Shown piece by piece: positions 17,901-54,518 of a stretch of DNA of 64,000 bases. A program made the translations under genes and the position numbers. The notes below the pieces were generated by a model that saw only the letters and a program-made list of their open reading frames with translations, searched no databases and had not been told where the DNA came from. The stretch comes from a virus, in IMG/VR virus record IMGVR_UViG_3300031236_000003, positions 28,924-92,923 of that record; one strand, 5' to 3'. Numbering within the stretch: position 1 is the first letter of the stretch; each line of letters begins with the position of its first letter.

Positions 17901-18649
17901 CAGCTAACTGGACCACTGGCAGCAACCGGCCGTCAGAGATGCCACCTGCATTCCGTCCCGGCAAGAATGCGAGTCCGGTCGAGCATCGCCTGGCGACCAT
18001 CCTTCGCATGACGCAATCGCTTCACGGCTTCATGTTCAAGACGGCGAATCTGGTGAACCGGGCAGTCTTCGAGCAACTTTACAAGTCTGATTGGAAGAGC
18101 CCCGCGCCCTACCACTTGATCGGCCGCTTTGCTTTCAATGCTGGGTTGGCTGGATTTGCGCTTGAGCAGATTCAAGCTCTGCGTCACCGGATGTCGGGAT
18201 CGTCGGAGGCGGACATTGAGAAGCGCCGGCACGAGTGGCTGGAGCAGCACCCGGCTTCGGCGGAGTCCCTGTGGTGGTCGATGGCAAACATCTCGATGGC
18301 GGTCGGCATCCAGCCGATGACGGAACTCTTTAATGAGATGGCTACGCGTGATCCGAAAGACAAGCAGAAACTCAATCAGCAGCACCGAGTTACACGGTCT
18401 GCGATGGGCATGATTCTCGGTATTCCCGGCGAGGACGTGACGGCAATTCTCACTGCGGTCGAGGATTACCATGCGACGTTCGAGGACACCGGCCACCACA
18501 AGCAGGACGCGGAGACCCGCCGCGCGAACATCCGCGACCGGCTGCTCAATGAATTGGTTACCGCTACGGCGTCGATTTCAGTCCTGAAGCCGAAAAAGGT
18601 CGAACCCGCCTACGGTGGTCGCCACAAGCGCGTTTCCAGCCGCATGTAA
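8912..18649 (+). CDS. Giant polyvalent protein: ddrB/ParB-like, zincin-like and SF2 helicase
   Basis: 3,245 residues. Two near-identical segments, F-A-(N/D)-LVNSKL, occur at about residues 27-35 and 46-54. A charged coiled-coil-rich region follows to about 880. Residues about 886-1300 match the ddrB-type ParB-like domain of polyvalent proteins (TSHMPHTF, QPRDYS, VVSANGRSISLAMML). Residues about 1460-1625 resemble the metallopeptidase domain of such proteins, but the HExxH site reads EEVGH (1475-1479), so it is probably inactive. After a low-complexity linker comes an SF2 helicase: Walker A APTGAGKS (1946-1953), FDES (2037-2040), SSATP near 2069, and motif VI QSTGRPWR (2333-2340). The last 750 residues are helical. 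Polyvalent proteins are known to be packaged and injected to protect phage DNA; that role here is inferred. A small gene is embedded at 14352-14522. Confidence 0.8.
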   Translation: MADQATVPAPTTNPATPPTSGGGSDAFANLVNSKLKKIEGGRKDKFADLVNSKLSKIQTAKPASTASTPPPEKPAEPIHSPSWWETTKAVAGWAASGTADILFGSGGGVASIPGVESTYKGTDLDPDKIVKQGVAKGDPTAIKTAKLQQEIHETFEAPLLNVSGSKPFQSVFDPNSKNAVSRFATGATKSVEGMTSIENLYSLGSIYAMPESIAKPMGLRFQADLATSGVQGITQATEATATGDEGSGAEAWGGMFGNLAVIVGMHYGEKGIHAGVDAIKNRDTTATLNEKAQTEYKKKFADLDDNQKAAVLYGAVEDANPKFRKRIDEEVDRMRERRAKKKQDAPAVDANMVPGAAAMVEANAGTEQERQDRLDAAKKFARQIVARRTREEAYKQQTAQREHETRQAAAAAANTAAESSRVQGEKDRAAEEAKSLEAQRGFGVTEGRVAELLPNRGVGMTTERESGQRYDPEHPEAGGVPIVDRRATAGQEIPEKTAQMTAAEFRLNEISERETGTSFSSKSVAEQRNTASLLEKNHPEAWEAFKKTPAYDQYVADVKHADMADATIKGFLERNPEGEPESLHPGADMSMGLSQLILNRIDVDSVFKSDPATHRDLNEHAERTIGKSFDSMDSSGKVAALASYLKEKPTKVLAFMTDDLKSRIGSGQHIDLANMDAESRAQLQQQTLMATRDDIRRTMDAGIAEQMVAEERKAQQQELTDAMYASLNSRTPSLEAVYATSKDMTAQAASLGLGQVNSLDDLFKIEKDALSLPARIRTPATNEFLMRMRQVRAAAEDHVLRELAEATAQRVRDNPTAAWEYNAKQVLHFSGQAADLRQAADDLRAQGRKQEADTAQHAADVAKAKAEAIVTGAQIASTPPPAPAARKPLRVSVGRETRIVTPRNPEGYKAHYAVGELTDLQTSHMPHTFEKRPGVNQIVQPRDYSTDTDAQVEAHRRTMNPDNDVFLANGVTSQDGPAVVDHDLHVVSANGRSISLAMMLRDNPTGYAKYVEDFHARAASFGIDPAEILKYEHPVLLKVLDEPVDRNSAQWALMGIDMNDSQSRGIGEVDMGAATANLLTPEFTDRLSGIIDSLDIFDRKGTATTVREAMSARSAEIAKLLTDAGVISPNRRVEFIDKETGALKEKAKDLFENLLMGLTVTDSSVIKDAKPAIKDKLTRAGMSFVKMKSAGENWNLASFNTDAIRLLNRAQDAEARLLRLATPEAQARGEGSESLIERYLHPTNYQDKNGFGPQVDLLLDGQAHVAPPHPAVEALARAIEESPRDYATMIAEYAKSATGTQLSMYGAEHPAVAFTNKIASRYSDGNGGKLSVAPEEWGTVAGLSDKAKAEIELGHGPLPVEPEVHAETAIADVTPDSSSVTEAIPEGPRTVQDLRKAIENFPGLTPELAEAASQMIEQFLPNALGMSVEELLGNRRLNFAIGGKDLDNRGYMQMIGETSAVIGICDSADISTFVEEVGHYIRQFMKPEHQSTANRFVDFKPEAPKNFKDRSGAVEFVESANRKIAETAENKKSVEAGQWEVVSSGDGFAARKGWSEGQEEMFTGALKRYHFDGGIRRGNMEKVFSTISKAMQSIYSFVTARKWAQGSKELNAMFDNWYDWDRAERKPLTTRLDPDVLADAAKGEWPKNLKSVDFSERQVSAKGSKFTFLDEEEARNFIKDKRNAVKAYRIYKEPGKDMIYVIADSNTKTLHQPGLSETFDLARKAKDLEAQLKKENDPRRQAWLRGQLNDVENKLRGSTFVAGGTPEPKDTSVIQLVHGLSEKPTMNEPTTPAQAVTVQQAQGDPTAISLGGDRGKPRGVPDGPAGVREEKPVDRVPEQAKPADGEPAPAKGRRGDGDIAKPAKSPLNEVKAAKLKAPDRQRGTPVADPDVWRGHVEALGLPTGTPPPTVRIDPDIRDLMIYPGQAEAIEGALSALQQHDATILAAPTGAGKSWMLSAIANHLLGTGGDTVGLLVTRSQNLIHEADGFVDTARKFGVDVDELPTKMADLQTGMYAATYAGIRGNRDLLTVPWDFVLFDESAEARNWTDSEQGKAVTLLGHAAKKVVYSSATPYSTVMELGYMHKLGLWPKGGFTEWARQFGLTEVGPNTYSGGTSAKKLEKLRQQIIERGQWQTLHKDMDGVEAHVALVPQTPEVRAGVRSIRQAFAMAMEGFKSAGMSRYLTPTAGHEAIYLKRYIESQRLPNAIELGKKAIADGWKPIFFSEYRSGAEMGMDFFHNLPGDMGAQINKLLPPLPDVVAKMREAFGDKVGIFAGEANDLRADELSQFMTGDKDALYMTYAAGGVGANPQDKVGDKPRMGIFLGLPWSGIMFEQSTGRPWRYGTMSNVANVFITSDTLPEMKVLATKILPRMRALKAAVYGEKMESKLSKNLRESVGIPEEMLQYEQGEEVQTQAAEWEKDGEGANYTHLKDFEMPKAKDAKNKGMKYKGQGKRLYQGPKEEDPWARAANDAWADVLKRSSGLPAPTARAITANEAIIKSEAAQAGRKAMGSGESVPDATKRKSLDMMNDMLLSDAKLVRMHGAQGGVRNIGRFVQENGWLLATSGDKVVEKAFKRAGMPELGEEVKRRMIDWDLRKGLYQGRLQGMLREIIKGNKITPKELGLVSKIVENKGSSDEPRINKAVAEFRKFTAHVRKLMADAGSVVVVYEDGKRKEVPYKAIEEDPNYWPRMYDWDQPFVIKEKDTGNRVVKTLAEIMNMPTGDERRERLINVFAESKGIPKLQAQAFFERNDRGIRLAGNVERARQFDIPMYGRDRQALERYIDQVSTTLATTEVHGQFRQKLDPLIAKLPDYESKLVNHIITSDLDPAHLPKSDRQAMSAFNTAVITGKMFYSPLKVGLHLWKAGLSTNTRSLVWAMFEGVTHPQEMMTRARDANALMEYSKAAWLHDYGAKSGGIAQLFLDYTGFTSLINFSRVISAGAGRLWFEKYAYPELKKDPENKDLRRKLSDLYGMSDEQLDNIVKNGYGPDDVRRMELGAANWTTGSNRPSEMPPAFRPGKNASPVEHRLATILRMTQSLHGFMFKTANLVNRAVFEQLYKSDWKSPAPYHLIGRFAFNAGLAGFALEQIQALRHRMSGSSEADIEKRRHEWLEQHPASAESLWWSMANISMAVGIQPMTELFNEMATRDPKDKQKLNQQHRVTRSAMGMILGIPGEDVTAILTAVEDYHATFEDTGHHKQDAETRRANIRDRLLNELVTATASISVLKPKKVEPAYGGRHKRVSSRM
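14352..14522 (+). CDS. Embedded small gene in alternative frame of the giant gene
   Basis: A GTG preceded by a near-perfect Shine-Dalgarno sequence (GGGAGGTGA, five bases before the start) opens a 56-residue frame, +1 relative to the host gene. The product begins like an ordinary globular helical protein (EEYLMDLLGFEKRSQLIEF) and ends in a Ser/Gln/Pro tail. Over the same stretch the host frame encodes only Pro/Gly/Lys/Arg-rich low-complexity linker. This suggests the alternative frame is under its own selection. Function unknown. An old frameshift remnant inside the linker would be the alternative. Confidence 0.45.
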   Translation: MANREEYLMDLLGFEKRSQLIEFLNKPSQPTGNLHPQRVEEATATSPSQQSPPSTK

Positions 18650-18735: not shown

Positions 18736-18812
18736 GCCATCGTCGTATAGTGGCCCATTACACTCGGCCCTTACCCGAGTTGACCTCAGTTCGAATCTGA
18801 GCGATGGCACCA
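18736..18812 (+). tRNA. tRNA, anticodon most likely CTT (Lys), CCA encoded
   Basis: Complete cloverleaf: acceptor GCCATCG/CGATGGC (7 pairs), D arm GTAT...TTAC with GTGG loop, anticodon stem CTCGG/CCGAG with loop CCCTTAC, T arm CTCAG-TTCGAAT-CTGAG (5 pairs) and an encoded ACCA end. The loop places CTT at positions 34-36. The usual U33 is C here, which is unusual, so the assigned amino acid is less certain than the gene itself. The overall sequence is close to bacterial tRNA-Glu in the D arm. Confidence 0.85.
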
Positions 18813-24609: not shown

Positions 24610-24945
24610 ATGAAGAACGCCGCAGCAATCCTCGCGCTGGCCCTGGCAATCCCAGCGTTCGCGCAGACCCCTAAGCCCGCAGCCCCGGTGCCAGCAGCCA
24701 AGGCGGCGCCGACCGTCCCAGTCGAGATCAAGGAGCGATTTCACAAGGCGCGCGCCGACGCCGCAGAGTCTCAGTTGCGATTCCAGGCAGCGCAGCAGGA
24801 CGCGCAGGCGAAGTCTCTGGCGTACCAGAAGGAGATCGCGGCCGCGCAGGGCGCTTGCGGCGCGGACTACGCGGTGAATCTGGATAAGTCTGGCGAGTTG
24901 GTGTGCCAGGAGAAGCCGAAGGCTGCGGAGCCGGGGAAGAAGTAA
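24610..24945 (+). CDS. Exported coiled-coil protein
   Basis: 111 residues with AGGAG before the ATG. A classic signal peptide (MKNAAAILALALAIPAFAQ, cleavage expected after AFA) is followed by a Pro/Ala spacer and a helical Gln/Ala/Lys-rich segment (residues about 45-85). Two cysteines (near 77 and 95) could form a disulfide. Probably periplasmic; role unknown. Confidence 0.6.
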   Translation: MKNAAAILALALAIPAFAQTPKPAAPVPAAKAAPTVPVEIKERFHKARADAAESQLRFQAAQQDAQAKSLAYQKEIAAAQGACGADYAVNLDKSGELVCQEKPKAAEPGKK

Positions 24946-29628: not shown

Positions 29629-31034
29629 CCGGTCCAGACACCACGCAAGTCCCAGACCACATCTACGACGAGATGGCCGGCGGAGCGAATAAGGCCCTGC
29701 CGGTTGAGACCGGACTGCCGGCGAATATCTCTGCCGAAAAGATGATCCTCGGGGCTATTTTGCTCGAGAACCAAGCCTTTAACGAAGCTGCGGAGCGTTT
29801 AGTCCCAGAAGACTTCTCTCTCGAGAGCCACCAGCGCATCTACCAGCGAATGACCGAACTCGTGGACGCTAGCCATGCGATCGAACTCACGACGCTGGCG
29901 GAGGAGCTTGCTCGCCACAAGGAGATTGAGTCTGTTGGCGGTGTCGCATACCTCTCTGACTTGACAGAAGGCCTGCCGCGGCGTCCCGTGATCGACGAGT
30001 ACATCCGCATCGTCAAGGACAAGAGCCAACTCCGCCAACTCATACTCATTTGCCAAGACACGCTGGCGCGCGCCGCAGACCAGAGCGAGACGGCGTTGGA
30101 TGTGCTGGAAATTGCTGAATCGCAACTGCTGCAGATCGCGCAGGAGGCGAACACTGGGCGGCTGCGGACGATTGCGGACTCCGTGGAAGACGCGGGCGGC
30201 CCAGACGCCTATCTCAAGGCGTACACCGAGCCATCGACGAAGGTTGGGCTTCAGACGGGCTTTGTGGACCTCGACCGGATGACTGGCGGATTGCAGCAGT
30301 CGGAATTGATCATAATCGCGGCGCGGCCGAGTATGGGCAAGACGGCGCTCGCCGTCAACCTAATGGAAAACGTGTGTTGCGGCTCAGACCGGGTTGTCGC
30401 ATTCTTCTCGCTGGAAATGTCTCGGGCTGCGATCGAGCACCGATTCATGGCGTCGAGAGCGCGCGTGGACGTAAAGCGAGCGATGGAAGGCTTCTACCTG
30501 TCGGAGCGCGAGAAAGAGAAGTTGGGTGGCGCGCTGATCGACTTGGCCGACGCCAGAATCTTCGTTGACGACTCCGCGCTGCTCACGCCGATCCAGTTGA
30601 GAGCGAAGGCTCGCCGGCTGAAGCAGCGAGAGAAGCGGCTGGATCTGATCTGCGTGGATTACGTCCAGCTAATGACTGCTGGCAGCAAGACCGGCAACCG
30701 GCAGGAAGAAGTTGCCGCAGTATCCCGTTCCCTGAAGGCATGCGCGAAAGAATTGGAAGTTCCGGTAGTCGCCCTGGCGCAGTTGAGCCGTAACAGCGAG
30801 CAGCGGACGGACAAGCGGCCCGTGCTGTCGGATTTGCGCGAGAGCGGACAGATAGAGCAAGATGCGGATTTGTGCTGCTTTATCCATCGCGATGCGTATT
30901 ACAGGCCGGACGATCCAGATGTCCAAGGGCTGGCCGACTTAATTGTGGCGAAGAGCCGCAATGGACCAACCGGTCTGGTTAAATTGGCATTCGAGGCGTC
31001 TCTGACGCGCTTCGAAAACTTGGCGAGGAGGTAG
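29625..31034 (+). CDS. dnaB: Replicative DNA helicase, DnaB family
   Basis: 469 residues, the usual length for DnaB. The start is a GTG overlapping the previous stop. An N-terminal primase-interacting helical domain (residues about 28-130, with AEKMILGAILLENQAFNEA) is followed by the RecA-like motor: Walker A RPSMGKTA near 233-240, Walker B DLICVDYVQLM near 341-351, and QLSRNSEQR...SDLRESGQIEQDAD near 385-412. It should unwind the phage replication fork. No phage DNA polymerase or primase is seen in the window, so host enzymes may complete the replisome. Confidence 0.93.
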   Translation: MTGPDTTQVPDHIYDEMAGGANKALPVETGLPANISAEKMILGAILLENQAFNEAAERLVPEDFSLESHQRIYQRMTELVDASHAIELTTLAEELARHKEIESVGGVAYLSDLTEGLPRRPVIDEYIRIVKDKSQLRQLILICQDTLARAADQSETALDVLEIAESQLLQIAQEANTGRLRTIADSVEDAGGPDAYLKAYTEPSTKVGLQTGFVDLDRMTGGLQQSELIIIAARPSMGKTALAVNLMENVCCGSDRVVAFFSLEMSRAAIEHRFMASRARVDVKRAMEGFYLSEREKEKLGGALIDLADARIFVDDSALLTPIQLRAKARRLKQREKRLDLICVDYVQLMTAGSKTGNRQEEVAAVSRSLKACAKELEVPVVALAQLSRNSEQRTDKRPVLSDLRESGQIEQDADLCCFIHRDAYYRPDDPDVQGLADLIVAKSRNGPTGLVKLAFEASLTRFENLARR

Positions 31035-31299: not shown

Positions 31300-31833
31300 A
31301 TGAAGTTCACGAACAGGTTCCTGAGCGGCATCGCTGCAATTGCAGTCATGCTTGTGGGCATGATCCCGACGACGGGCTGCTCTTCCGCCACCATCGCTGA
31401 CCTGGCGCAGACGCTGGGCAACGCAGGGGCTCAGATCGCGACGCTGGAGAACAACCCGACTCTGGCAGCGAAGCTCAAAGCGGATACCGCGGCGGCCGTC
31501 TCGGCGATTGCCAGTTGGAAGTCGGGTTCGCCGGCTACGGAGGCAATCGAGGCGCTGAATATCGTTGAGGACGACCTCGACCTGATTCCCGGAACATCGA
31601 CTTACGCTCCGCTGATTGATCTGGCTATTGGCACCGTAGAGAGCATCCTGGCGCTACTGCCAACTTCGGCAGCGGTTGTGGCTCCCGCGACGCTGTCGGC
31701 ACATACGGCGACGTTGAAGGCGAAGCGGCCGGGGATTGCGATCACGAATCCTCCGAAGACGAAGGGTGACTTCAAGAAGCAGTGGAATGCTATCGTGGCC
31801 GAGAGTCCAGTATTGGCGAAGGCAAAGATTTAA
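31300..31833 (+). CDS. Putative lipoprotein
   Basis: 177 residues. A positively charged start, a hydrophobic core and a PTTGC lipobox (Cys27) indicate export and lipid attachment. The mature part is helical and Ala-rich, with a C-terminal GDFKKQWNAIVAESP. A phage lipoprotein expressed near replication genes could act in superinfection exclusion, but no family is recognised. A hairpin follows the stop. Confidence 0.6.
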   Translation: MKFTNRFLSGIAAIAVMLVGMIPTTGCSSATIADLAQTLGNAGAQIATLENNPTLAAKLKADTAAAVSAIASWKSGSPATEAIEALNIVEDDLDLIPGTSTYAPLIDLAIGTVESILALLPTSAAVVAPATLSAHTATLKAKRPGIAITNPPKTKGDFKKQWNAIVAESPVLAKAKI

Positions 31834-33527: not shown

Positions 33528-34670
33528 ATGCCCAGAACCTCATTTCAGCAAGGCTCCGTAGTCCGCGTATCCCGCAAGAGCGGCGATGCGTGGAGATTTC
33601 GTTGGCGCGAAAACGGCACTCAGCGCAGCGAGTGGATTGGGACGGTGAAGCAGTTACCGTCCCGCGCCCAGGCCGAGAAAGCCGCGCAGCGATTCCGCCA
33701 GCAGGCAAACTCCGGCATCGAAGTCATCACCATGGCCGATCTCATTGCGAAGTTCTGGCAGGAAGCGGCGCCGGAACGCGAGACGACCGCGCACTCGTAC
33801 CGCAGCATCTTCAAGCGGATCGAGGCCGAGTTCGGCAGTCTACGCGTGGACCAGTTCTGCCGCGAGGTAATGCGCGTCGAGCAGTGGCTGAAGGAATTGA
33901 CGGTCATTGGACGGCACCCAAAGCCCGGCGTGAAGCCGCTGGTGAGCGACCTGTACCGCTCCCAGGTGAGGAACCTGCTGCACTTGCTGATCGAGAAGGC
34001 GATGCTTTGGGGGAATGTGCAGGTCGACCGGAATCCCATGGATTTAGTTCGCCTGAAGGGCAGCGCACGCGCCAAGGAAATCCAGACGCTGACCCCTGAG
34101 CAGTACGGCCAGCTTGTCAACGACCCAGAACTGCCGGAGATGGTGCGAGTGTTGATCCAGTTGTTGGCTGGGCTCGGACTTCGCATCTCTGAGGGCTTGG
34201 GACTTCGCTGGTCAGACATCGACTTCGAATCCGGTACGATCCAGATCAACCGTAGCATGGTCCACGGCCAGGCGAACGACACGAAGACGGCTAGCTCGAA
34301 GACGGCGCTTCCCTTGCATGAGCGCCTAGTGGACGTGCTGCGCTGGTGGCATGCGCGCGCGCCGAAGTCGGCTTGGGTGTTTTGCTCGGAGCGGACCGGC
34401 GCGCCTTATGACCGGGATTATCTTCGCTCGGAGTATCTGGCTCCGGCCGGCAAGCGGATCGGCGTAGAGGGGCTTGGCTGGCACTGCCTGCGCCACTCGT
34501 ATCGAGCTATGCTGCGCGAAAGTGGTGCTTCCCTGGAAGACCAGAAGAGTCTGATGCGGCACTCAAAGTTGGCTACGACCGTCGATACTTACGGTGGCCG
34601 CGACAGCGTTGAGCGGTTGAGACCCATGAACCAGAAAATTGTCGAGATGCTGCCGAGGAGGAGTGCATGA
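33528..34670 (+). CDS. int: Tyrosine recombinase (phage integrase)
   Basis: 380 residues with GGAAAGGAAAGCG before the ATG. An N-terminal arm and core-binding region (residues about 60-160, with TAHSYRSIFKRIEAEFG) precedes the catalytic domain. All key residues are visible: Arg219 in GLRISEGLGL, His319-x-x-Arg322 in HCLRHSYR, His345 in MRHSKLATT and the nucleophile Tyr355 in DTYGG. It catalyses integration into the host chromosome, showing a temperate life cycle. The start lies 220 bases behind the operator promoter; an excisionase-like gene is at 39125. Confidence 0.92.
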   Translation: MPRTSFQQGSVVRVSRKSGDAWRFRWRENGTQRSEWIGTVKQLPSRAQAEKAAQRFRQQANSGIEVITMADLIAKFWQEAAPERETTAHSYRSIFKRIEAEFGSLRVDQFCREVMRVEQWLKELTVIGRHPKPGVKPLVSDLYRSQVRNLLHLLIEKAMLWGNVQVDRNPMDLVRLKGSARAKEIQTLTPEQYGQLVNDPELPEMVRVLIQLLAGLGLRISEGLGLRWSDIDFESGTIQINRSMVHGQANDTKTASSKTALPLHERLVDVLRWWHARAPKSAWVFCSERTGAPYDRDYLRSEYLAPAGKRIGVEGLGWHCLRHSYRAMLRESGASLEDQKSLMRHSKLATTVDTYGGRDSVERLRPMNQKIVEMLPRRSA

Positions 34671-44247: not shown

Positions 44248-45062
44248 TGTCCACTCAATCTGTAATTTCGACGACCCCGCATTACCTGCCCCAAGGCGAA
44301 GTCCTCTCGCCCGAATCTCAGCCAATACAGGATCTTCACCGCGAGCTCGTCTCGGCGGCGCGCGCCCTGCGCTCGTGTCTCGCTAAGGTCTCGTACTACG
44401 GCTGGCGGATGCGGCTGTGCGAGGGCTGGACGGCGCTGGCCTATCCGGCTGGCAGCAAAGGGGAAGAGGCCTACGCGGAGTCCATTGGCATACCCCGCAG
44501 CACATGGTACCGCCACGTCAGGATCGGTCAGCTACTTCACCAACTCACATACGAAGACCTCGAGCGCATCCCGACGACAAACGCCGAACTGCTGATCCAG
44601 GTCAACCCGGCCATCTGCCACGATTTCAACTGGACCCGCGAAGCGCAAGTGCTGAAGCCAAACAAATTCGCCGAACTCGTCGCCCAGCGCAACAAGGCCG
44701 CCGGCGATGACCGCGAGCCGCTCGCATCTCTGGTCCTCAAGGTGCCGTTTCTGGCCAAGCAGGCCGTCGAGTCCATGATCGAGGATTTCCAGCACAAGCA
44801 CCAGTTGAATTCCAAGGGCCAGGCGCTCGAATTGATGATTGCCGATCGCAGCCAGGACGCAAGCCTGCTGAGTTCCGTGCATCAGGCCCGTCAACTCTTG
44901 GTGGGCGTCGAAGAGTTGATGAAGCAGCGCGGCGCCGAGGATTCGGACGAGATTCGGTGGATTCACATGGCGAAGGAGATTTTGGATGAGAGCTACGAGA
45001 AAACGGTTCAAGCCGCCCGATCGAAGCCCGAAGGCCGTAAAGCGACTGGAGGACGGGCGTGA
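44247..45062 (+). CDS. Putative DNA-binding regulator
   Basis: 271 residues from the GTG that coincides with the predicted transcription start. Residues about 72-110 (EAYAESIGIPRSTWYRHVRI) look like a helix-turn-helix. Helical segments with coiled-coil potential follow to the C-terminus. It stands alone in front of the tailspike region and behind its own promoter class, so it could regulate late genes. Its target is unknown. Confidence 0.55.
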   Translation: MSTQSVISTTPHYLPQGEVLSPESQPIQDLHRELVSAARALRSCLAKVSYYGWRMRLCEGWTALAYPAGSKGEEAYAESIGIPRSTWYRHVRIGQLLHQLTYEDLERIPTTNAELLIQVNPAICHDFNWTREAQVLKPNKFAELVAQRNKAAGDDREPLASLVLKVPFLAKQAVESMIEDFQHKHQLNSKGQALELMIADRSQDASLLSSVHQARQLLVGVEELMKQRGAEDSDEIRWIHMAKEILDESYEKTVQAARSKPEGRKATGGRA

Positions 45063-45360
45063 AATCTGCCTCCAAAATGCGGCAGGGCGCGCAGAGTACA
45101 AACTCCGAAAGATGCGTATGTGGCAACGTCAGTCGGGAATTTGCAGCCTCTGTAACCAACCTGTATCGCTGGTCGAATGCACGTTTGAACACGCACAAGG
45201 CAGAACGTCAGGACGCAAAGATGAGCGCATCGTTAATGAAAATGGCGAGCCATGCAATTCCGTATGCCATCGCAAATGCAACAACGCGAAGGGGAGCAAG
45301 CATTTTCAGCCGGCTATTCCCCGCGGCTTTGATCCTCCTCTTGAGTTTGAGCGCGACTAG
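44986..45360 (+). CDS. Small HNH endonuclease
   Basis: 124 residues; GAAGGAG lies before the ATG at 44986. CSLCNQPVSLVECTFEHA, then CHRKCNNAKGS give an HNH/zinc core of the type found in phage endonucleases. It overlaps the regulator upstream by 77 bases and the tailspike frame downstream by 140, so the three coding frames are squeezed together. Confidence 0.65.
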   Translation: MRATRKRFKPPDRSPKAVKRLEDGREICLQNAAGRAEYKLRKMRMWQRQSGICSLCNQPVSLVECTFEHAQGRTSGRKDERIVNENGEPCNSVCHRKCNNAKGSKHFQPAIPRGFDPPLEFERD

Positions 45361-48300
45361 CGCCTGGGCGCAGGTGGGATCGGCCATCTCCGGCCAGTTT
45401 GTTACGCCCACCGGCACGCCCGCATCGAACGCTAGGGTGACGGTCTGCCCGTACACCGCTACCGGCCTGCCCTGCTCGCCGCAAGCGACCATCTACTCGG
45501 ACCCGGCGCTGACCCTGCCGCTTTCGCAGCCTTATGGACTCGACCAGTTCGGCAATCTGAACGTCTGGGTGACCGCCGGCAGCTACATCGTTCAGATCCA
45601 GGTCAACCTGACCATCAGCTATTCGTACGTGGTCACGGCCGGAGGGAGCGGAGGCGGGGGCGGCGGGGGGATCACCAGCATCGGCGCCAGCTCTCCCGTT
45701 GTCGTCACCCCGTCACCAATCACCAATACGGGCACGGTGAGTTGCCCACTCTGCATCTTCGGCTCCGGCATCACGAACTTCTACGCGCTGTTCTCCGGGG
45801 CGCAGCAGGTGTCTACCGGCGGCCTGAGCGATGTGGCCGGGATCGTGAACTCGTCTGAACCCGTGGCGATCAATTCTACCGGCCAATCTGCGATATTCTT
45901 CGGCATTCAGAACGCGGCGATTGCCGACGTTCCAGGTAACTACCTTGGACTCTTCGGGCCAACCGCTGGAACTCCAGCCTACGGGCTACAGGTCGCTCCA
46001 GTGGCTCCGCCGAGCGAAGGCCAGCAGTTGCTCTACCACGCTGCTACCCTCATCAACGGAGCGTTTCAGGCGATTCCCTTTTGGGCGACGCCGGGAGGAG
46101 GGGGTTCTGGTTGTATTGTCGGGGCTTCGGGGTTTGCGCAGTTCTCAAATGGTACAGGGTGCGTGAGTGAATTCATTGATTATGGAGTGACCCAAGCGCA
46201 AACTTTAACTTTATCTGTTCCTGGCGGTGACTCCAATAGGATCGAATTAGATGCTCCGGAGATTACAGGGACATCGACTGGAGGAGGCATTGATATAAAT
46301 GCTGGAAACGTTAAGTCTCTTGGCCCTGGAGGTGAGGGTTCGGTCTGGATTTATGGAAACGACGAGGATTTTGGGTGGGTTCTACTCAGCTATGGAGCGG
46401 GAAAGATTATAGCTGGCGAGGTAGATGAATGTGCTCCGGGAACGAATCCCGGAGTCTGCGATAGCACTGCTGGTCAAATCGATATAAATATTGACGGTAC
46501 TGAAAACTTTACCGGAAATAGCGGCGGCATAAATGTTTCCCAAAACGGCGGGGGTATCGAAAATGAGGGATTTTCCCTTAATGGGTATAATGCAAACTCC
46601 GCATCCACGGTCAATCTGAGCTTCGATCCTACCGTACAGGATGTAGACGCGACCTCCGGAGCCGTCACGGTCAATCTACCTCTGGCATCAAGAGACGATG
46701 GCGAGACCTATTTCATTAAAAAGATCGACTCCAGCGGTAATGCTGTCACGGTGACCGCTAATTCTGGAGATCTGATCGACGGAGCTGCAACCTATCCTCT
46801 CGCAACTCAGTACGACTGGGTTATGTTGGTGTCTACTGGAAGCCATGCTTGGGACGTATATAGCGCACAGGGTAGCGGCGGCGGTGGAGGAAGCGGTACT
46901 GTAACCAGCTTCTCTACGGGAAGTTGGCCGTCATGGCTCGTGCCTTCGGTAGCAAACCCGACTACGACGCCTACTCTGTCTGTGACCTCTTCGCTTACCT
47001 TAGCGAATGTCGCAGCGGGCGCTTCGCCCACCGGTCTGTTCGACTTCTCAGGTGCGACCGCTTTCAAGGTTCCGACTCACGCCGGCGCTACTGCTGCCGC
47101 TCCAGGTGAGTTGATATACGACTCTACCAACGGCAACATGCACACGAACTACGTGGGCACGGACTTGATCGTAGCCGGGTTCCCGTCGGCCTCTCTGCCG
47201 ACCAGCGGACACTGCGCTGAATTTATCGAGATCGGCGCGTGGTGGGAAATTGCCGATGCGGGAGCGGCCTGCGGCGGAGGCGGAGGAAGCGGCACGGTCA
47301 ACAGCGGCACATCCGGCCAAGTGGCTTTTTATGCATCTACCGGCACGGCGGTAAGCGGGGAAACGCACGTGACCACGGCGCAACTTGGATCAGGAACGGC
47401 AGCAGCGGGATCGTATGTAGATGGGGCATCCGGGGCGTGGACTGTACTTCCGTTCAAGTCTTTGACTACGACAGGTACAAGTGGGGCCGCTACCCTTACT
47501 TCGGGTGTGCTCAACGTCCCACAGTACACTGGCGGAGGCGCAAGCTATACCAATGTGGTGGCGTCCTCAACCGCAGACACAACCGTTGCCGCAATCAACG
47601 CGAAATGTACCGGAGGGCAGACATACTGGGCCAGCGTTCCGATTTCTATAGCTACAGGGGGCACGATTGCTTCAGGCTGCAACGTAATGTTTGTCATAGG
47701 CGGCGTATGGACTATTGCCGGCGGACAGACGGTAACTTTCGCGAATCCCATTCAGGAGAATGACGGTCCATCGTCACACTTCACCGGCTCTGGTGTGGTG
47801 TCTTTACCTGCGCAGGACGCGCGGCCTGAGTGGTTTGGCGCGGTTGGATATACGACGGAGACCACAGCAACTACAGGCGGGTCGTGCACAACCAATTCGA
47901 CTTCGGCAATTCAATCGACCATCACTGCAATGACCACTGGGCAAGTCTTGTTGCAACCTCTCGTATACTGCGTCAATTCCGCCCTCAGTATCGGTAAGAG
48001 CGCGGTAGGCATCCACGGTAGTCAGTACGGATTCCAGGCGCAGGGAGGCTATACAGAGGCGCTTGCGGGTGGATCTATGATCATCACAACATCAGCTTCA
48101 GCGGACATTGTTGACGCGGCTGGCGCGGACAGCACCCACCTCCTGCAATGGAACAAGTTCGATTACTTCTCTCTGACAAGAGGCGTAACCCCGAGCGGCA
48201 CGGCTACCGGACTATCCTTGTCGTTCGTGGCAGGAGCAACCGTCGATCATGTGATTGTGGCTGACAGTATGCGCGGATTCTACTGCCAATTCTGCCCTGC

Positions 48301-50425
48301 CAATGGCAGCGGGATCATTCAGAACTCTGGTGTATGGTGGGACTTCAATGGAATATCTGAGAGCGGATTAACGATGTATGGTTTCTACCTCGATGGGTCC
48401 AGTTTTGCGGAAAACAGCATCAGGCTTCAAAATCTGATCGAAGATAACGGAAATGGTGCGACCAGCAACACCACTTACGGAATATACGAAATTGGGGCTT
48501 TGAACGATGTAAAAATTACCGATAATGAGACCGAAAACCTAAGCTACGGTATGTATGCCGACCACACCGTAGACGGATCGATCTCCTCCAGCGATATATC
48601 GTGGATCAACCCGCTGATGAATGATTGCGTTGTCTCGTGTCTGTACGTGACCGGACTGGACCTCAATGGCGATCCCAGCATGAAGATCATCGGCGCATGG
48701 ACTAGTACCTCTGGCTCGGGAACCCCGCACAACGTAGACATTATCAATAGCGGTGGAGTTCAAGTTATCGGCGGTCATTTTACGCAGCACGATTTCACTA
48801 ACGCAACCATCGGCATCAACATCTCCGGAGGACGCAACAATAGCCTAATTGGCAACTGGCTAAATAACACATCCGACGGTTGCATGATTACGATTTCTGG
48901 CTCCAATGACAACCTCGTCACCGGCAACCATATTCACATTGAAAATGGTGCATTCGCGGCTACGGTTGTTGACGTTTGCCTTACTGGAAGTTCTAGCTTA
49001 AATGCGTTCAGCGGAAACCTTCTGGATGGGTTTGCTTTGCAAGGCATGAACTTTGGGGGTAGCACCGCGAACAACACGCTAGACAATACAAACAACATCG
49101 ACCCAACGAACATCGCTACGCCGATTGTGGACACCGGAACTAACAATCGCAACCTCAGCGTTAATGCCCTGACGGCAAATAGCATGATTGATTTGGGACT
49201 GACAGCAAGCACAAGCCCGATTTGCCCTAACGGAGCAGGTGGAGCGTTTACTACGGTAGGATGCTCAGGCGGCGGAGGGGGTTCAGCGTTCTCGGCAATC
49301 ACTAGTGGTACCAATACTTCAGCGGCGATGGTTGTGGGTAGCGGATCAAGCCTGACAGTAAGCGGGTCAGGTACAAACAACGCAACTTCAATCGGTGGAG
49401 TGGCAGTTACCGGAACGCCATCTGTAGGATTCGTTCCTACGGCGACAAGTGGCAGTGCTGCAACATGGCAAGCCGCGTCCGGAGGAGGTGGTGGCGGAGG
49501 AACATCTGGTTGGTCTGGAGCACCAATCTCTCTATTAGTGTCAGCCACGCAATATGTACCCTGGGTGGGCGGAGGATCGACGAGCACCACGGAATCACTC
49601 GTACAAAACAAAGCTCCAGCCGCGTTCTCAATTGCAAATCTGCAACTAAGTCTCAGTGCCTCTCTAGGAACTGGAACGACGCTCGCGGTGACTCTGCGGG
49701 ATGGGGGAGCATCCGAGGCTTTGACCTGCACCACGGCTTCTGGAGGCACAACCTGTACAGACACGACTCATACGTTCAGCGTAGCGCAGGGAGACTTGCT
49801 GGATTTCGTTATTACAGCTACAGGCACGGTGACAGCGGCAACGCCGGAAATCATTTTGAGTTACACGATAGGAGTGCCTGCGACGAGTGCGGGAGGTGGT
49901 TCAACTGAAAGCCACACAGCCATCGGTTCAGCAGAGTTGGACTTCACGACCTGTATTGCAGGTGGGACGGACAACAATTACACAGTCTATGTGACCAATC
50001 TTATTCCAGGTACAAGCGGCGCTGCTCCGCTGCTTGAGTTTTCTACGAATGGCGGGTCTACTTGGGATACCAGCTCCGTGTACTCATGGGCGCAGGGAAA
50101 CGTCCAAGTAGGTGGGGGTACGACGGGTAACAATACCGCCGCCAGCGTGGGAGGCATCCTCCTATTTGGAGTTAACAACACCTCTGGACCTTCCGCTACT
50201 GGTGTATCTTTGAGCGGGACCATGACACTTCAAAATCCGGGCGGAGGGCAGGCGATCAAAACGGTCGGATTGCACGATGGTACAGCTAATTACGGTGCAT
50301 CCTCCTACGCATTTTATATGTCTGGGATGTACGCCAACTCATCTCCTGTAAACGCTTTTAGGATCGTTTATTCCACCGGCAACATCACCAGTGGCACCGT
50401 AGCCTGCTACGCAGTTCCCAACTAA
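45221..50425 (+). CDS. Tailspike/tail fibre with beta-helix and signal-peptide-like N-terminus
   Basis: 1,734 residues if started at the ATG at 45221; ATGs at 45236 and 45242 are alternatives, because the true start is hidden in the HNH overlap. Residues about 28-47 form a signal-peptide-like core (LFPAALILLLSLSATSAWAQ). A small IYSD...L beta domain follows. Gly/Ser linkers (GGGGGGG type) separate modules. Near residue 866, RPEWFGAVGY opens a right-handed beta-helix region (to about 1310) like phage tailspikes that cleave polysaccharide. Repeated Thr/Ser/Gly beta modules make up the C-terminus. An exported virion fibre would be unusual. Confidence 0.7.
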   Translation: MSASLMKMASHAIPYAIANATTRRGASIFSRLFPAALILLLSLSATSAWAQVGSAISGQFVTPTGTPASNARVTVCPYTATGLPCSPQATIYSDPALTLPLSQPYGLDQFGNLNVWVTAGSYIVQIQVNLTISYSYVVTAGGSGGGGGGGITSIGASSPVVVTPSPITNTGTVSCPLCIFGSGITNFYALFSGAQQVSTGGLSDVAGIVNSSEPVAINSTGQSAIFFGIQNAAIADVPGNYLGLFGPTAGTPAYGLQVAPVAPPSEGQQLLYHAATLINGAFQAIPFWATPGGGGSGCIVGASGFAQFSNGTGCVSEFIDYGVTQAQTLTLSVPGGDSNRIELDAPEITGTSTGGGIDINAGNVKSLGPGGEGSVWIYGNDEDFGWVLLSYGAGKIIAGEVDECAPGTNPGVCDSTAGQIDINIDGTENFTGNSGGINVSQNGGGIENEGFSLNGYNANSASTVNLSFDPTVQDVDATSGAVTVNLPLASRDDGETYFIKKIDSSGNAVTVTANSGDLIDGAATYPLATQYDWVMLVSTGSHAWDVYSAQGSGGGGGSGTVTSFSTGSWPSWLVPSVANPTTTPTLSVTSSLTLANVAAGASPTGLFDFSGATAFKVPTHAGATAAAPGELIYDSTNGNMHTNYVGTDLIVAGFPSASLPTSGHCAEFIEIGAWWEIADAGAACGGGGGSGTVNSGTSGQVAFYASTGTAVSGETHVTTAQLGSGTAAAGSYVDGASGAWTVLPFKSLTTTGTSGAATLTSGVLNVPQYTGGGASYTNVVASSTADTTVAAINAKCTGGQTYWASVPISIATGGTIASGCNVMFVIGGVWTIAGGQTVTFANPIQENDGPSSHFTGSGVVSLPAQDARPEWFGAVGYTTETTATTGGSCTTNSTSAIQSTITAMTTGQVLLQPLVYCVNSALSIGKSAVGIHGSQYGFQAQGGYTEALAGGSMIITTSASADIVDAAGADSTHLLQWNKFDYFSLTRGVTPSGTATGLSLSFVAGATVDHVIVADSMRGFYCQFCPANGSGIIQNSGVWWDFNGISESGLTMYGFYLDGSSFAENSIRLQNLIEDNGNGATSNTTYGIYEIGALNDVKITDNETENLSYGMYADHTVDGSISSSDISWINPLMNDCVVSCLYVTGLDLNGDPSMKIIGAWTSTSGSGTPHNVDIINSGGVQVIGGHFTQHDFTNATIGINISGGRNNSLIGNWLNNTSDGCMITISGSNDNLVTGNHIHIENGAFAATVVDVCLTGSSSLNAFSGNLLDGFALQGMNFGGSTANNTLDNTNNIDPTNIATPIVDTGTNNRNLSVNALTANSMIDLGLTASTSPICPNGAGGAFTTVGCSGGGGGSAFSAITSGTNTSAAMVVGSGSSLTVSGSGTNNATSIGGVAVTGTPSVGFVPTATSGSAATWQAASGGGGGGGTSGWSGAPISLLVSATQYVPWVGGGSTSTTESLVQNKAPAAFSIANLQLSLSASLGTGTTLAVTLRDGGASEALTCTTASGGTTCTDTTHTFSVAQGDLLDFVITATGTVTAATPEIILSYTIGVPATSAGGGSTESHTAIGSAELDFTTCIAGGTDNNYTVYVTNLIPGTSGAAPLLEFSTNGGSTWDTSSVYSWAQGNVQVGGGTTGNNTAASVGGILLFGVNNTSGPSATGVSLSGTMTLQNPGGGQAIKTVGLHDGTANYGASSYAFYMSGMYANSSPVNAFRIVYSTGNITSGTVACYAVPN

Positions 50426-50444
50426 CTCTTCGCAAGGAGAAAAC

Positions 50445-50771
50445 ATGTCACAGACAATCACCATTGAAGCAGGACAGACACTCACCATAACAACGCCTGT
50501 CCAAGTCGATTCCACCGGAACCCCACTGCCCGCTCCCGACCCAACCTACGGATCGGCGACCATCGCATTCGATTCCACGTTCTTCACTCAGGAAGGCGCT
50601 CCGATCAGCGGAGAGTTCCTCCTGAAGAGCACTGGACTGGCTGGGACAACTGAGGTTACGACCTCGGAAACGTCTTCGGACACGACCAAGCCTGTCATTA
50701 CCGATGTCATCACCGTCACTGTCACTGAACCGGCTGCGGCTGGTTTGGAATCCACTCTCAGCGCAGCTTAA
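50445..50771 (+). CDS. Small beta-rich structural protein
   Basis: 108 residues with AAGGAGAAAAC before the ATG. Thr/Ser/Val-rich strands (QTITIEAGQTLTITTPVQVD) with an Ala/Glu-rich end. It lacks a signal peptide. Probably a virion decoration or chaperone of the neighbouring spike genes; not recognised. Confidence 0.5.
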   Translation: MSQTITIEAGQTLTITTPVQVDSTGTPLPAPDPTYGSATIAFDSTFFTQEGAPISGEFLLKSTGLAGTTEVTTSETSSDTTKPVITDVITVTVTEPAAAGLESTLSAA

Positions 50772-50776
50772 CCTCA

Positions 50777-50795
50777 TGGGGGCAGCAATGCCCCC
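50777..50795 (+). other. Hairpin upstream of glycoside hydrolase gene
   Basis: GGGGGCA-GCAA-TGCCCCC: a perfect stem between the end of the previous gene and the ATG at 50808. There is no T-tract. It may control translation of the hydrolase or separate the two messages. Confidence 0.45.
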
Positions 50796-50807
50796 ATTCA
50801 GGACACC

Positions 50808-53800
50808 ATGAAACTCCGTAATATCGCTCTACTCTTGATGTTCGCGCCCTTGTGGTGTTCGGCGCAGACGGCCACCGTAACTCTGGATGACGCCGTGACG
50901 GTACAGGCCGCGCCCGCCAAGCCGGGAATCAATATTTCCACGCTGAATTTCTTCGACACCGGAAACTCCATCCTCAAGAACTTCGTGGGGAATAATAGCT
51001 GGTCGTTCAACCAGATCGGATCGCGGCAGATAAAGACTTTGACTGCCGCCGGCACGTCAACTGTTTTCACCGATCCCGATATTTTCAATCAGCCATTTCA
51101 AAATTACTGGGCGGGTGGAACGATTTTCGTGGAAGTCTCGCAGTCTGGCGGAGCCGAGTTAAACTGCACGTCCGCAATTGCATCGAATCTGGGCCAGACG
51201 CAAATCATTTCCGGCTCCATATCTGGATCGGTTGCGACCTTCGTCACGGATATCGCGTCGGGCTTTACTCCAGGGCAACAGTTCTACGTTAAAAATTCCT
51301 CAAACTCCTCGTACAACCAGTTTGGCAACGGTACCGTAACCTCGGTCTCCGGCACTACAACTATTGTCACCTACACCGGTACCCTACCCACGGGAACGAC
51401 TACGGGAGGGTATGTTGGGCAGATTGGCGACAATACGTTTACCCTGTCTACGCCGTGCGCCGCTCCGCTTACGACAGGTGATGTCATTGTCATCACGCAA
51501 CCGGCTAGGCCGGTTCCCGCTGCGCAGTGGGCTGCTAATTTCGGCGGAGTTTGGGCATATCCAACAGGATTAAGCTCAGACACAACCGACCTCTGCGCTA
51601 CCTGCGGAGACCAGGCTCTGGACATGAACGGCCTGAGCACACCCACGTATACCTTCTCCTACTTCGACGCTTCGGATACGAATATCAATCTGTTCACGCT
51701 GCTTAGTAGCGGAAGCTACAATTTCAGTTTTGACGCTAAGTTGGTGTCTGGATCGACCACCGGACTCAATGCCAAGATTGTGCGCGGCACAGACTCCGGA
51801 CCGGGTGTAAATTGCAGTTTCACCCCAACTATGACCACCGGTGTTTGGGCGCACTACTCTGCCACATGCACACCTGCGGAGATTGGCATTGTACAGAATA
51901 TCTCCACTTGCAAGCCGGGGGGACCATTTACCGGATGTACCGTACCAAACACCGAAGTGACGGTGACGGTTGAGGCGAATGGATCGGAAGTTTACTTCGA
52001 CAACCTCAACTTCTCCAGCGCCGCTGACACCAACCCAACGCAGTTCTCGCAGACATTCATCACCGCGCTACAAAGCTTGCACCCTGGCACGCTCAGGATG
52101 TGGAGCAACCAAAATGCGCAAACTATAGAAAACTGGACCAGACCGACTTCATCTCAGGACTTGTACGGAACGGCTGGCGACTGGGGCGCGATTAACGGGT
52201 CTGCCGATGTGGTGCCCTCGCTCGAAGACTTTTTGCAACTAAACCAGATGGTCGGCTCCAATCCCTACATCGAGGTTCCGGTTACATTCTCGCCCACGGA
52301 AATGTCTCAGATGATCGACTTTCTCTGCGGAGGATCAGGCACGACCTATGGAGCGAGGCGCATTGCGTTGGGGCAGACTACGCCGTGGTGTCAAGTCTTC
52401 TCGCATATCTACCTAACGGTGTGCAACGAATGTTGGAATGGTAACTTCGCGAACCAGAACTTGCCGCTTCGCGGCGGCGAGCCTTCCGGTGCCGATGAGT
52501 ATTACGATTATGGAAAGGTCAACGGCTTGCTCATTGCGGCGGCGCGAGCCACTGGCAGCTACTCTACCGTAATTCAGTTCGGATTCGATGTCCAAACTGC
52601 CGTGACTGCCAACGCAACAAGCATTGGGTTCGCGCATCCAGACTTTCTTGAAATGGAAGGATACTGGATGAACAACATGAACCAGTGGACGAATACATGC
52701 GGACTGACCACTCCTCCAGCGACTTTGGAGTCATGCACATGGCTACCGGGATTTGCCGAGCTGTACACCGTGGCGCATGGGCCTGCACTGGATATCTCTA
52801 CGCACACCGGAGACCCTACGAACTTCTTTGGCTCCGATCAGACCTACCTCGGGCTGAACATTTGCGGACCGTCGGGAACGGCGGCGTGTCAAGTCTCCGT
52901 CTACGAGGAGGGTCCAGGAACGCTTGGGAGTAACGATGGTGTAGAGTCGCCGCAAGCCTATCTCGATCAGCTCAACGCTGGCGCTGGACAGGCGGCTTAT
53001 ACCGTTATCTCTCTCGCAGAGAAAATGAAGCAGTACAACATCGTGCAGAACTTCTTCGCGGCCACCGGCTACAACAATGGCGGAAACAACGGAAACACCT
53101 TCAAGGGATGGGGATGCTTCGTAGATATTGGCGGAGCCACTGGTAACCTGCGGCCCGAGTGTAATGGCCTGATGATGCTCAATGCTGCGATGATTGGACC
53201 CCTGGCACAGAGCACAATTACGGGCACAGGAACGACGATCTCGACTCCGTACCTCGACTATGCCGGCGTCGGCCCCGGAACAGGTTCAGGCGAGAACAAG
53301 GGAGTATCCATCGTCCCGGCGCTGCCGCTGAACTATAGCTACCTCTTCACCAATGGAAGCCAGCGTTCCCTGCTGCTCGTATCTGGAGACACCACTAATA
53401 CATGGACAATGAACCTCGCGGGCACTAACGTTCCGACAGGCTCAGTCGCCTTGCAGGACTTCAACCCGTCTACCTGCGCTTCTCCTCCTGCGGGATGGGG
53501 GCAACTTGATTGCATGAACGAGACGTACACTGGTGGAGGCAGCACATTTGAGACAGCCTCTACGGTAGCTAAGGTCGCATCCACCATTGCGGCACCTGGC
53601 AGCGTGACGCTCACGCCGGGAGAGATGAAGCTCTTGACGTGGAATGTAAGCGGGACACCGACTGCGGCGACACCAACATTCGCGCCTCCCGCAGGGACGT
53701 ACACCAGTGCTCAATCCGTGGCTATCACCGCGTCTACCGGATCAGTAATTTGCGTGAGCACCACCACCACTCCAGCTACAAACGGAACGACCGGATGCAC

Positions 53801-54518
53801 AACCGGGACGCTCTACACCGGCCCTATAACGGTCTCCGCGAGCGAAACTATCAATGCCGTGGCGGGCGGGACCGGATTCTTGGATAGCGCCGTTGGATCG
53901 GCAACCTACACCATAACGGCTCCGGCGCTACCTGCCACCCCAACTTTCTCTCCAGCGGCCGGTTCATTTTCGAGTCCTCAGACCGTCAGCATGGTCACGA
54001 CTACTCTGGGATGCAATAGCCATGTCGTGTGGAACCTTACCGGAGCGACCGTCGGCGGGAATCTGACCGGGACAACCGCTGGCAATACGGTATCAGTGCC
54101 TTCCTCGGAAACTGTTTACGCCCAGGTTCAGGGTTGCCCGTCGTTTGCCAACTCGCTCATCGGTAGCGCAGCATACACGATAAGCACGTTGCTCGCGGCG
54201 CCAAGTTTATCGCCGCCGGCAGGCACGTATTCCGGGGCCCAATCTGTAACGATTTCCGATTCGGCTGGCGCCACGATATGCTACGGATTAGGGACGGTGC
54301 CGATAGCGCCAACCCCAGGCATTTGCGGTCCGGGCAGCACAACGTACACCGGTCCTATTATGGTCAGCATGACGCAGGTGATTCGGGCGTTGGCTACCCA
54401 GGCGGGGCACGTCAATTCGGTAGTTACGACGGCGGCGTACACTATCAACAGTACTTCGATTTTGACCATTTTCCTCGACGGGAAACTGGTTTTCTCTGGG
54501 GCCGTCCAGACTCCATAG
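50808..54518 (+). CDS. Secreted-type glycoside hydrolase with three C-terminal CHB_HEX-type repeats
   Basis: 1,236 residues with a signal peptide (MKLRNIALLLMFAPLWCSAQ). Residues about 400-930 form a TIM-barrel-like region with the clan-A arrangement: Asn-Glu541 in VCNECWN as general acid and Glu700 or Glu701 in VYEEGPG as nucleophile. Three repeats of the chitobiase/beta-hexosaminidase C-terminal type begin near 957, 1045 and 1132 (PPAGTYTSAQSV, PAAGSFSSPQTV, PPAGTYSGAQSV). It likely attacks host or capsular polysaccharide as a depolymerase. Family number cannot be decided by eye. Confidence 0.7.
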   Translation: MKLRNIALLLMFAPLWCSAQTATVTLDDAVTVQAAPAKPGINISTLNFFDTGNSILKNFVGNNSWSFNQIGSRQIKTLTAAGTSTVFTDPDIFNQPFQNYWAGGTIFVEVSQSGGAELNCTSAIASNLGQTQIISGSISGSVATFVTDIASGFTPGQQFYVKNSSNSSYNQFGNGTVTSVSGTTTIVTYTGTLPTGTTTGGYVGQIGDNTFTLSTPCAAPLTTGDVIVITQPARPVPAAQWAANFGGVWAYPTGLSSDTTDLCATCGDQALDMNGLSTPTYTFSYFDASDTNINLFTLLSSGSYNFSFDAKLVSGSTTGLNAKIVRGTDSGPGVNCSFTPTMTTGVWAHYSATCTPAEIGIVQNISTCKPGGPFTGCTVPNTEVTVTVEANGSEVYFDNLNFSSAADTNPTQFSQTFITALQSLHPGTLRMWSNQNAQTIENWTRPTSSQDLYGTAGDWGAINGSADVVPSLEDFLQLNQMVGSNPYIEVPVTFSPTEMSQMIDFLCGGSGTTYGARRIALGQTTPWCQVFSHIYLTVCNECWNGNFANQNLPLRGGEPSGADEYYDYGKVNGLLIAAARATGSYSTVIQFGFDVQTAVTANATSIGFAHPDFLEMEGYWMNNMNQWTNTCGLTTPPATLESCTWLPGFAELYTVAHGPALDISTHTGDPTNFFGSDQTYLGLNICGPSGTAACQVSVYEEGPGTLGSNDGVESPQAYLDQLNAGAGQAAYTVISLAEKMKQYNIVQNFFAATGYNNGGNNGNTFKGWGCFVDIGGATGNLRPECNGLMMLNAAMIGPLAQSTITGTGTTISTPYLDYAGVGPGTGSGENKGVSIVPALPLNYSYLFTNGSQRSLLLVSGDTTNTWTMNLAGTNVPTGSVALQDFNPSTCASPPAGWGQLDCMNETYTGGGSTFETASTVAKVASTIAAPGSVTLTPGEMKLLTWNVSGTPTAATPTFAPPAGTYTSAQSVAITASTGSVICVSTTTTPATNGTTGCTTGTLYTGPITVSASETINAVAGGTGFLDSAVGSATYTITAPALPATPTFSPAAGSFSSPQTVSMVTTTLGCNSHVVWNLTGATVGGNLTGTTAGNTVSVPSSETVYAQVQGCPSFANSLIGSAAYTISTLLAAPSLSPPAGTYSGAQSVTISDSAGATICYGLGTVPIAPTPGICGPGSTTYTGPIMVSMTQVIRALATQAGHVNSVVTTAAYTINSTSILTIFLDGKLVFSGAVQTP

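Follow-up and report, generated by a model that had tools for sequence, protein, structure and literature searches.

Introduction

The assembly of phage tail fibres is generally taken to be cytoplasmic, and heads of phage P22 that lack spikes reportedly turn infectious once spikes are added to lysates. In the open PMC papers, to which the search was confined, we found no description of tail fibres with signal peptides. Among isolated phages the Tunturi phages of Tunturiibacter are of special relevance here; according to the main text of the paper describing them they were obtained as virus isolates and have lytic cycles, X5P2 is the common host strain of Tunturi 1, 2 and 3, and signal peptides are not mentioned in this main text (PMC11924767). 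Here we analyze the right-hand 64 kb of the 92,923-bp IMG/VR virus record IMGVR_UViG_3300031236_000003 (the window) and in particular two very large open reading frames (ORFs), ORF A (45221–50425, 1734 aa) and ORF C (50808–54518, 1236 aa), which lie on the plus strand with all their parts, as does the small ORF B in between. Judged from the sequences, the predicted export of both proteins via the host Sec pathway is well supported. On balance we favour an explanation in which ORF A would be a tailspike that docks late on the virions and ORF C an enzyme that would thin polysaccharide.

Signal peptides and start sites

Signal peptides were called with a rule-based scan devised for this analysis. 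By this rule the N-termini of ORF A and ORF C are canonical Sec-type (signal peptidase I) signal peptides with an n-, an h- and a c-region and an AXA site, and the sequence-only reading, which had pointed out hydrophobic export-like N-termini on both large proteins, is confirmed in this respect. The signal peptide of ORF A comprises 50 codons (45221–45370) with a basic n-region, the hydrophobic segment LFPAALILLLSLSA and predicted cleavage between AWA and Q. The signal peptide of ORF C (50808–50864) consists of the 19 residues MKLRNIALLLMFAPLWCSA and is followed by the predicted mature N-terminus QTATVT. The chance level of the rule can be judged from control virus loci, where 2/66 ORFs of at least 300 aa were positive, and one of the two is a genuine case of an exported fibre. 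In the neighbourhoods of relatives of the capsid gene of this phage none of the 11 ORFs of at least 300 aa was positive, and in the first 30 kb of lambda there was one weak hit in 11, probably a false positive.

The start of ORF C is simple, with ATG 50808, an upstream AGGA Shine–Dalgarno-like sequence and no overlapping gene. The frame of ORF A is open from GTG 45059; ATG 45221 stands in a Shine–Dalgarno-like AGGA-N7 context, and GTG 45374, the next start past the whole hydrophobic segment, is without such an AGGA. An ORF resembling HNH endonucleases (44986–45360, also plus strand; phrog_5718, E=0.0024), which we regard as context outside the proposed system, overlaps the first 140 nt of ORF A and thereby most of the hydrophobic segment. 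When the synonymous codons of the HNH frame were reshuffled 5000 times, the residues around the cleavage site lying outside the overlap and therefore being fixed, a signal-like A frame was obtained in 103/5000 cases and a score equal to the real one in 1/5000. Moreover, the mature N-domain of ORF A is found in five proteins of other virus contigs (BLASTP E 2e-7 to 6e-3), all five of which have a signal peptide directly before the shared domain. The HNH overlap does not explain the signal of ORF A.

One could argue that the hydrophobic N-termini serve the packing or trimerisation of fibres that stay in the cytoplasm, or that ORF A starts at GTG 45374. To our knowledge all textbook examples of phage fibres are cytoplasmic, and the overlap of the ORF A signal with the HNH frame would fit such a reading too. 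Yet tripartite signals with AXA sites are present in unrelated proteins, and the AGGA at ATG 45221, the reshuffling and the five relatives all place the start of ORF A in front of the hydrophobic segment and not behind it. Together with the cysteine data given below this makes a purely cytoplasmic fate of the two proteins highly improbable.

We also asked if the cleavage sites between Ala and Gln copy a preference of the host. This was not supported, as Gln at +1 occurs in 6/42 host signal-like ORFs versus 15/38 IMG/VR ORFs, the latter figure coming from a rule that favours Q.

Occurrence in isolated phages

A tblastn search of the phage collection with ORF C gave matches only in Tunturi 1 and 2, via the CHB_HEX module (CHB_HEX_C_1; 54213–54431, the best of two stretches in ORF C). 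The counts for these two phages cover about two thirds of each genome; Tunturi 5 (308 kb) was left out. Clear signals start gp12, gp13, gp14 and gp17 of both phages. Among the examined genes of at least 900 nt 4/12 are rule-positive in Tunturi 1 and 4/11 in Tunturi 2, all of them in the fibre module, and every long fibre or beta-helix gene that we recognised in the covered part has a signal. In Tunturi 4 the total is 3/22, with gp113 and gp114 positive as annotated and gp111 after correction of its start. The annotated start of gp111 (L009:30076-33171, PP885687.1) at 30433 appears to be 119 codons late, and the in-frame TTG at L009:30076 restores the signal and a domain 52% identical to gp113.

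These phages bear on the possibility that ORF A and ORF C are genes for lysogenic conversion, i.e., a surface adhesin and an enzyme of the lysogen comparable to lambda lom. An integrase is encoded at 33528–34670 (phrog_1, E=4e-56), so that the phage may be temperate and lysogeny is possible. However, the same feature is found in the Tunturi phages, for which lytic cycles are described (main text of PMC11924767), and ORF A has the predicted anchor domain of a tailspike. Lysogenic conversion is therefore improbable, and the earlier proposal of an adhesin exported from a lysogen is not needed.

Occurrence in uncultivated viruses

IMG/VR was searched with two baits, the beta-helix domain A1 (3 loci) and the fibre N-domain A2 (23 loci). 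The matched ORF is rule-positive for a signal in 24/26 loci, and the N-termini of the two remaining ones resemble signals when judged by eye; the count becomes 20/22 when the duplicates L181, L182, L187 and L197 are removed. Since the baits were taken from signal-bearing proteins, 24/26 is not an unbiased frequency. Neighbouring genes often carry a signal as well (38 of the 84 complete ORFs of at least 300 aa in the A1/A2 loci). In 22/23 A2 loci the alignment begins beyond the signal, no earlier than residue 34. With the generic fibre start domain (NYGLTKP) as a control a signal was present in 3/80 loci, two of them distinct, at the place where the other copies start with Met. The signal stands exactly where the standard MPTTTxNYGLTKP fibre begins, in the manner of a graft, in L202, L232 and L200, the last one being from the A2 set.

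Several other searches remained empty, which proves nothing by itself: single-protein scans gave no close relatives of ORF A in viral contigs or the phage collection and none of ORF C in viral or genome contigs, and neither the gene upstream of ORF A (44145) nor Tunturi gp11 gave a match as bait.

Cysteine content and pairing

Mature cysteines were counted, and their pairing was tested by permutation, after cutting at the predicted cleavage site. ORF A and ORF C contain 26 mature cysteines each, which are arranged in tight consecutive pairs, unlike in the other proteins of the phage. Random placement equals the close pairing of ORF A in 0/5000 cases (1/20000 with a fixed cut at residue 25). 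The median number of cysteines per 100 aa is 1.93 in 14 signal-bearing proteins, the lambda false positive included, and 0.66 in 84 other proteins. The number of mature cysteines is even in 10/11 signal-bearing proteins (26, 26, 20, 10, 20, 34, 32, 12, 8, and 20), and in 7/10 large ones pairing is significant at p<0.005 (range 0/5000 to 0.080). Among the ORFs of the IMG/VR loci with at least four cysteines an even number is found in 29/36 with a signal and in 11/23 without, and pairing at p<0.05 in 19/36 and 4/23, respectively.

The strongest single indication comes from the A2 fibre domain, where the cysteine of the CGDATHV motif has exactly one partner in 21/21 distinct exported copies. This partner is located at +20 in 11 copies and at +7 in 10, never at both and never at none of the two positions; the first cysteine belonged to the search pattern, the partner did not. 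The non-exported A2 homologs of Pelagibacter phage HTVC008M, Acinetobacter phage ME3 ('tail fiber protein') and Limnohabitans phage DC31 are all without signal, have Phe, Phe and Tyr, respectively, at the position of this cysteine, lack the +7/+20 partner and contain 0, 2 and 1 cysteines in the whole protein. Cysteine pairing and partner switching are the pattern expected of proteins that fold in an oxidising compartment, as we suggest for these proteins from their sequences, and VKOR and DsbA are present in 4/4 acidobacterial genomes. For cytoplasmic fibres the paired cysteines and the switching disulfide partner would be hard to explain, the cytoplasm being reducing, and the non-exported homologs have neither the signal nor these cysteines.

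ORF A as a probable tailspike

The mature N-terminal domain of ORF A (45371–45655) was modelled with AF2 from 6 sequences (pLDDT 84.5). In BFVD, Foldseek matched the model to viral tailspikes and to pectate-lyase proteins of phages (35 at E<=1e-3); against the PDB there was no Foldseek match at E<=1e-3, the best being 0.0095. With VIA-align, 13 of the 14 best solved-structure chains are tailspike or tail anchor domains (Pan3, Pam1, P22, Sf6), with Z of 8.0–9.7 over 82–85 of 95 residues. Alignment, AF2 model, Foldseek and VIA-align together predict the fold of the head-binding domain of the P22/Sf6/Pam1/Pan3 tailspikes. The body of ORF A gave no Pfam or PHROG match. It contains Gly-rich linkers and, at 47819, the sequence ARPEWFGA, found by eye, which we take to be a tailspike motif and whose PEWFGA is the hint for a beta-helix type.

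In our best reading, which builds on this model, ORF A would be a tailspike that is exported via Sec, is stabilised by disulfides and probably attaches to the virions at lysis. Since the signal peptide precedes a domain of the virion-docking type, we prefer docking after export over free secretion, and the completion of P22 heads by spikes in lysates mentioned above makes late docking physically reasonable. The sequence-only reading had also offered a cleaved anchor. This is wrong in detail, as the cleaved part would be the signal peptide and the head-binding-type anchor remains after cleavage.

ORF C as a probable glycosidase

A carbohydrate-binding-like and GH51-like catalytic region occupies positions 51363–53522 of ORF C. 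The sequence of ORF C alone gave no GH match in Pfam and none in the PDB by phmmer, and the single-sequence fold model of the GH region has a pLDDT of 32. A profile of ten catalytic regions of the ORF C family (A5), however, matches GH51 arabinofuranosidases of solved structure with E=4.5e-15. Two glutamates of the catalytic type, Glu541 (52428–52430) and Glu700 (52905–52907), are invariant in 10/10 aligned sequences, where they occur as NE and E and are presumably the acid/base and the nucleophile, respectively.

Relatives of the catalytic region are present in 21/299 Terriglobia genomes. From these, 24 loci were inspected, 22 of which gave a tblastn match; 19/22 have a rule-positive signal or lipoprotein-like start, a rough count because some frames run off the end of their locus. 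Glycosyltransferases, flippases or Wzy-like genes are found in 4/8 neighbourhoods (Pfam; 10 selected proteins scanned): exopolysaccharide genes exceed the cut-off in L168, L172 and L174, and L169 has a sub-threshold Wzy_C alone. By eye there are no exopolysaccharide genes in L170 and L171, and L173 and L175 are ambiguous. As a side observation, this secreted GH51-like family of Terriglobia (L168, L169, L172, L174) occurs in several genomes as two copies about 5–20 kb apart, and a weak Pfam GH-type match is obtained for 1/10 members.

The GH51-like profile and the relatives beside exopolysaccharide genes let ORF C appear as an exported enzyme directed against host exopolysaccharide or a similar polymer. 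The best reading of these sequences is that ORF C would be an exported GH51-like glycosidase related to the enzymes of acidobacterial exopolysaccharide clusters. ORF A and ORF C, which had been treated as one class of tailspike and hydrolase, look like two classes.

Exported-type genes with CHB_HEX or GH59/GH30 modules are also present in other virus loci (L178, L193, L198), and L198:8425-9822 codes for a signal-bearing GH59/GH30-like enzyme within the fibre module of another virus. By eye, a short C-terminal strand like GK(V/L)xFxGxV tends to end exported proteins of the enzyme type and not those of the fibre type (ORF C, Tunturi 2 gp17, Tunturi 2 gp14, L185:6942-9059, L188:7202-9349).

Both proteins could also be exported without ever becoming parts of the virion, and then act as free depolymerases or adhesins in matrix degradation, superinfection control or the loosening of aggregates. 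The signals and disulfides of ORF A and ORF C would fit this equally; no anchor domain was found in ORF C, whose architecture is that of cellular secreted glycosidases, in G140 and G288 including the N-terminal part, and the L198 fibre module holds a second exported glycosidase. However, the head-binding-type domain of ORF A is located exactly at the predicted mature N-terminus and exported fibres retain standard fibre N-domains. Furthermore, the recognised long fibres of Tunturi 1 and 2 are all signal-bearing, yet these phages form plaques and must have some receptor-binding protein. We therefore consider free secretion of both proteins possible and rather unlikely. The earlier suggestion of a release to degrade capsule fits ORF C, which is GH51-like and has cellular relatives that are often in exopolysaccharide clusters.

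A model for extracytoplasmic completion

In the explanation that we favour, the host would be a Gram-negative bacterium, most likely an acidobacterium, and cleavable Sec (type I) signal peptides would take ORF A and ORF C into its periplasm, where both proteins would fold and acquire many short-range disulfides. Removal of the signal would leave the head-binding-type domain as the new N-terminus of ORF A, which most likely would wait in the periplasm or outside and dock on the tail hubs at lysis. Lysis would mix the cytoplasmic particles with the pool of exported spikes, and the virion would be completed outside the cytoplasm. ORF C most likely would thin the host's own polysaccharide round the infected cells and so help the progeny to escape. 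More tentatively, and with doubts of about the same weight as our belief or slightly more, we propose this extracytoplasmic completion for a whole group of tailed phages that is typical of Acidobacteriota; their spikes and fibres would leave by the Sec pathway, fold and form disulfides in the periplasm, and meet the tail hubs only at lysis, via a standard head-binding domain exposed by signal peptidase.

Several observations weigh against this picture. As heads are assembled in the cytoplasm, an exported spike needs a late docking step, which is unproven. None of the 24 examined genes of Tunturi 3 is rule-positive; with the same host strain as Tunturi 1 and 2, this phage is an internal counter-example: the host strain does not demand export. 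A signal is also missing from Tunturi 4 gp112, only one mature cysteine is present in Tunturi 2 gp16 (149 aa, signal-like), and the phage studied here possibly has a non-exported tail-fibre protein (L004:11856-12518; phrog_4209, E=4.5e-7). In one acidobacterial genome the exported proteins contain few cysteines (0.20 per 100 aa, n=23), so that disulfide richness would be a trait of the phage and not simply the style of the host. The beta-helix part of ORF A had no match in 299 Terriglobia genomes and the A2 fibre domain none in 396 Acidobacteriota genomes; empty results of this kind prove nothing by themselves, and they make the host assignment indirect.

If the model is true, exported disulfide-bonded fibres would amount to a two-compartment assembly line and would explain very stable spikes in phages of slime-forming soil bacteria. 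Laboratory expression of such fibres may need an oxidising compartment. Annotation is affected as well, since at least one isolated phage (Tunturi 4 gp111) appears to have a wrong start codon through a hidden signal. The way in which such proteins are counted in soil viromes would change too, as a glycosidase that is exported and encoded among fibre genes may serve as a depolymerase rather than as an auxiliary carbon-cycle enzyme.

Gene context

The terminase, portal and capsid genes lie to the left of the window according to PHROGs matches, and the middle of the window is occupied by replication and recombination genes. The order at 45–54.5 kb is ORF A, ORF B, ORF C, the latter being the last large gene of the module. 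ORF B (50445–50771, 108 aa) is without signal peptide and family match. A giant, unusually cysteine-poor ORF of 3245 aa (8912–18649) matches DNA helicases (phrog_16, E=3e-8) and is directly followed by a single tRNA gene, tRNA-Lys (ctt), at 18736–18812. Two more small ORFs (24610–24945 and 31300–31833) have signal-like N-termini, one being MKNAAAILALALAIPAFA followed by Q and the other lipoprotein-like.

Comparison with known systems

The ORF C family resembles the GH51 alpha-L-arabinofuranosidases in the profile match and in the NE and E catalytic-type residues. It differs from these enzymes and from the acidobacterial relatives in that only part of the barrel aligns and that ORF C is phage-borne and carries CHB_HEX modules; the identity of ORF C to the aligned cellular homologs is 24–32%. 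WceF of Pantoea stewartii, as described in the available text of PMC7949094, is likewise an enzyme that is exported; it belongs to an exopolysaccharide cluster, and its fold is tailspike-like. It is, however, the product of a bacterial gene with a Tat signal and without a virion role, whereas ORF A is viral and has a Sec-type signal. Secreted or signal–arrest–release (SAR) endolysins such as Lys44 of fOg44 are, according to the available text of PMC6116005, a precedent for phage proteins that the host Sec system exports ahead of lysis, but they are lysis enzymes and not tail parts.

The fibre modules of the Tunturi phages (Tunturi 1 and 2 gp12–gp17, Tunturi 4 gp111–gp114) share with the present locus the runs of signal-bearing, cysteine-paired fibre or beta-helix genes, and Tunturi 1 and 2 have the CHB_HEX module in common with ORF C (48.8% identity over 85 aa). 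In contrast, they show no overall sequence similarity to ORF A and lack the catalytic domain of ORF C. To the P22-type tailspikes (P22 gp9, Sf6 gp14, Pam1, Pan3) ORF A is similar in the predicted fold of the N-domain, the long spike and the PEWFGA sequence of the beta-helix type; it differs in the cleavable signal peptide, the 26 paired cysteines, the length of 1734 aa and the Gly-rich linkers. As P22-type tailspikes start without a signal and ORF A with one of 50 residues, we class ORF A as a variant that probably works like a tailspike.

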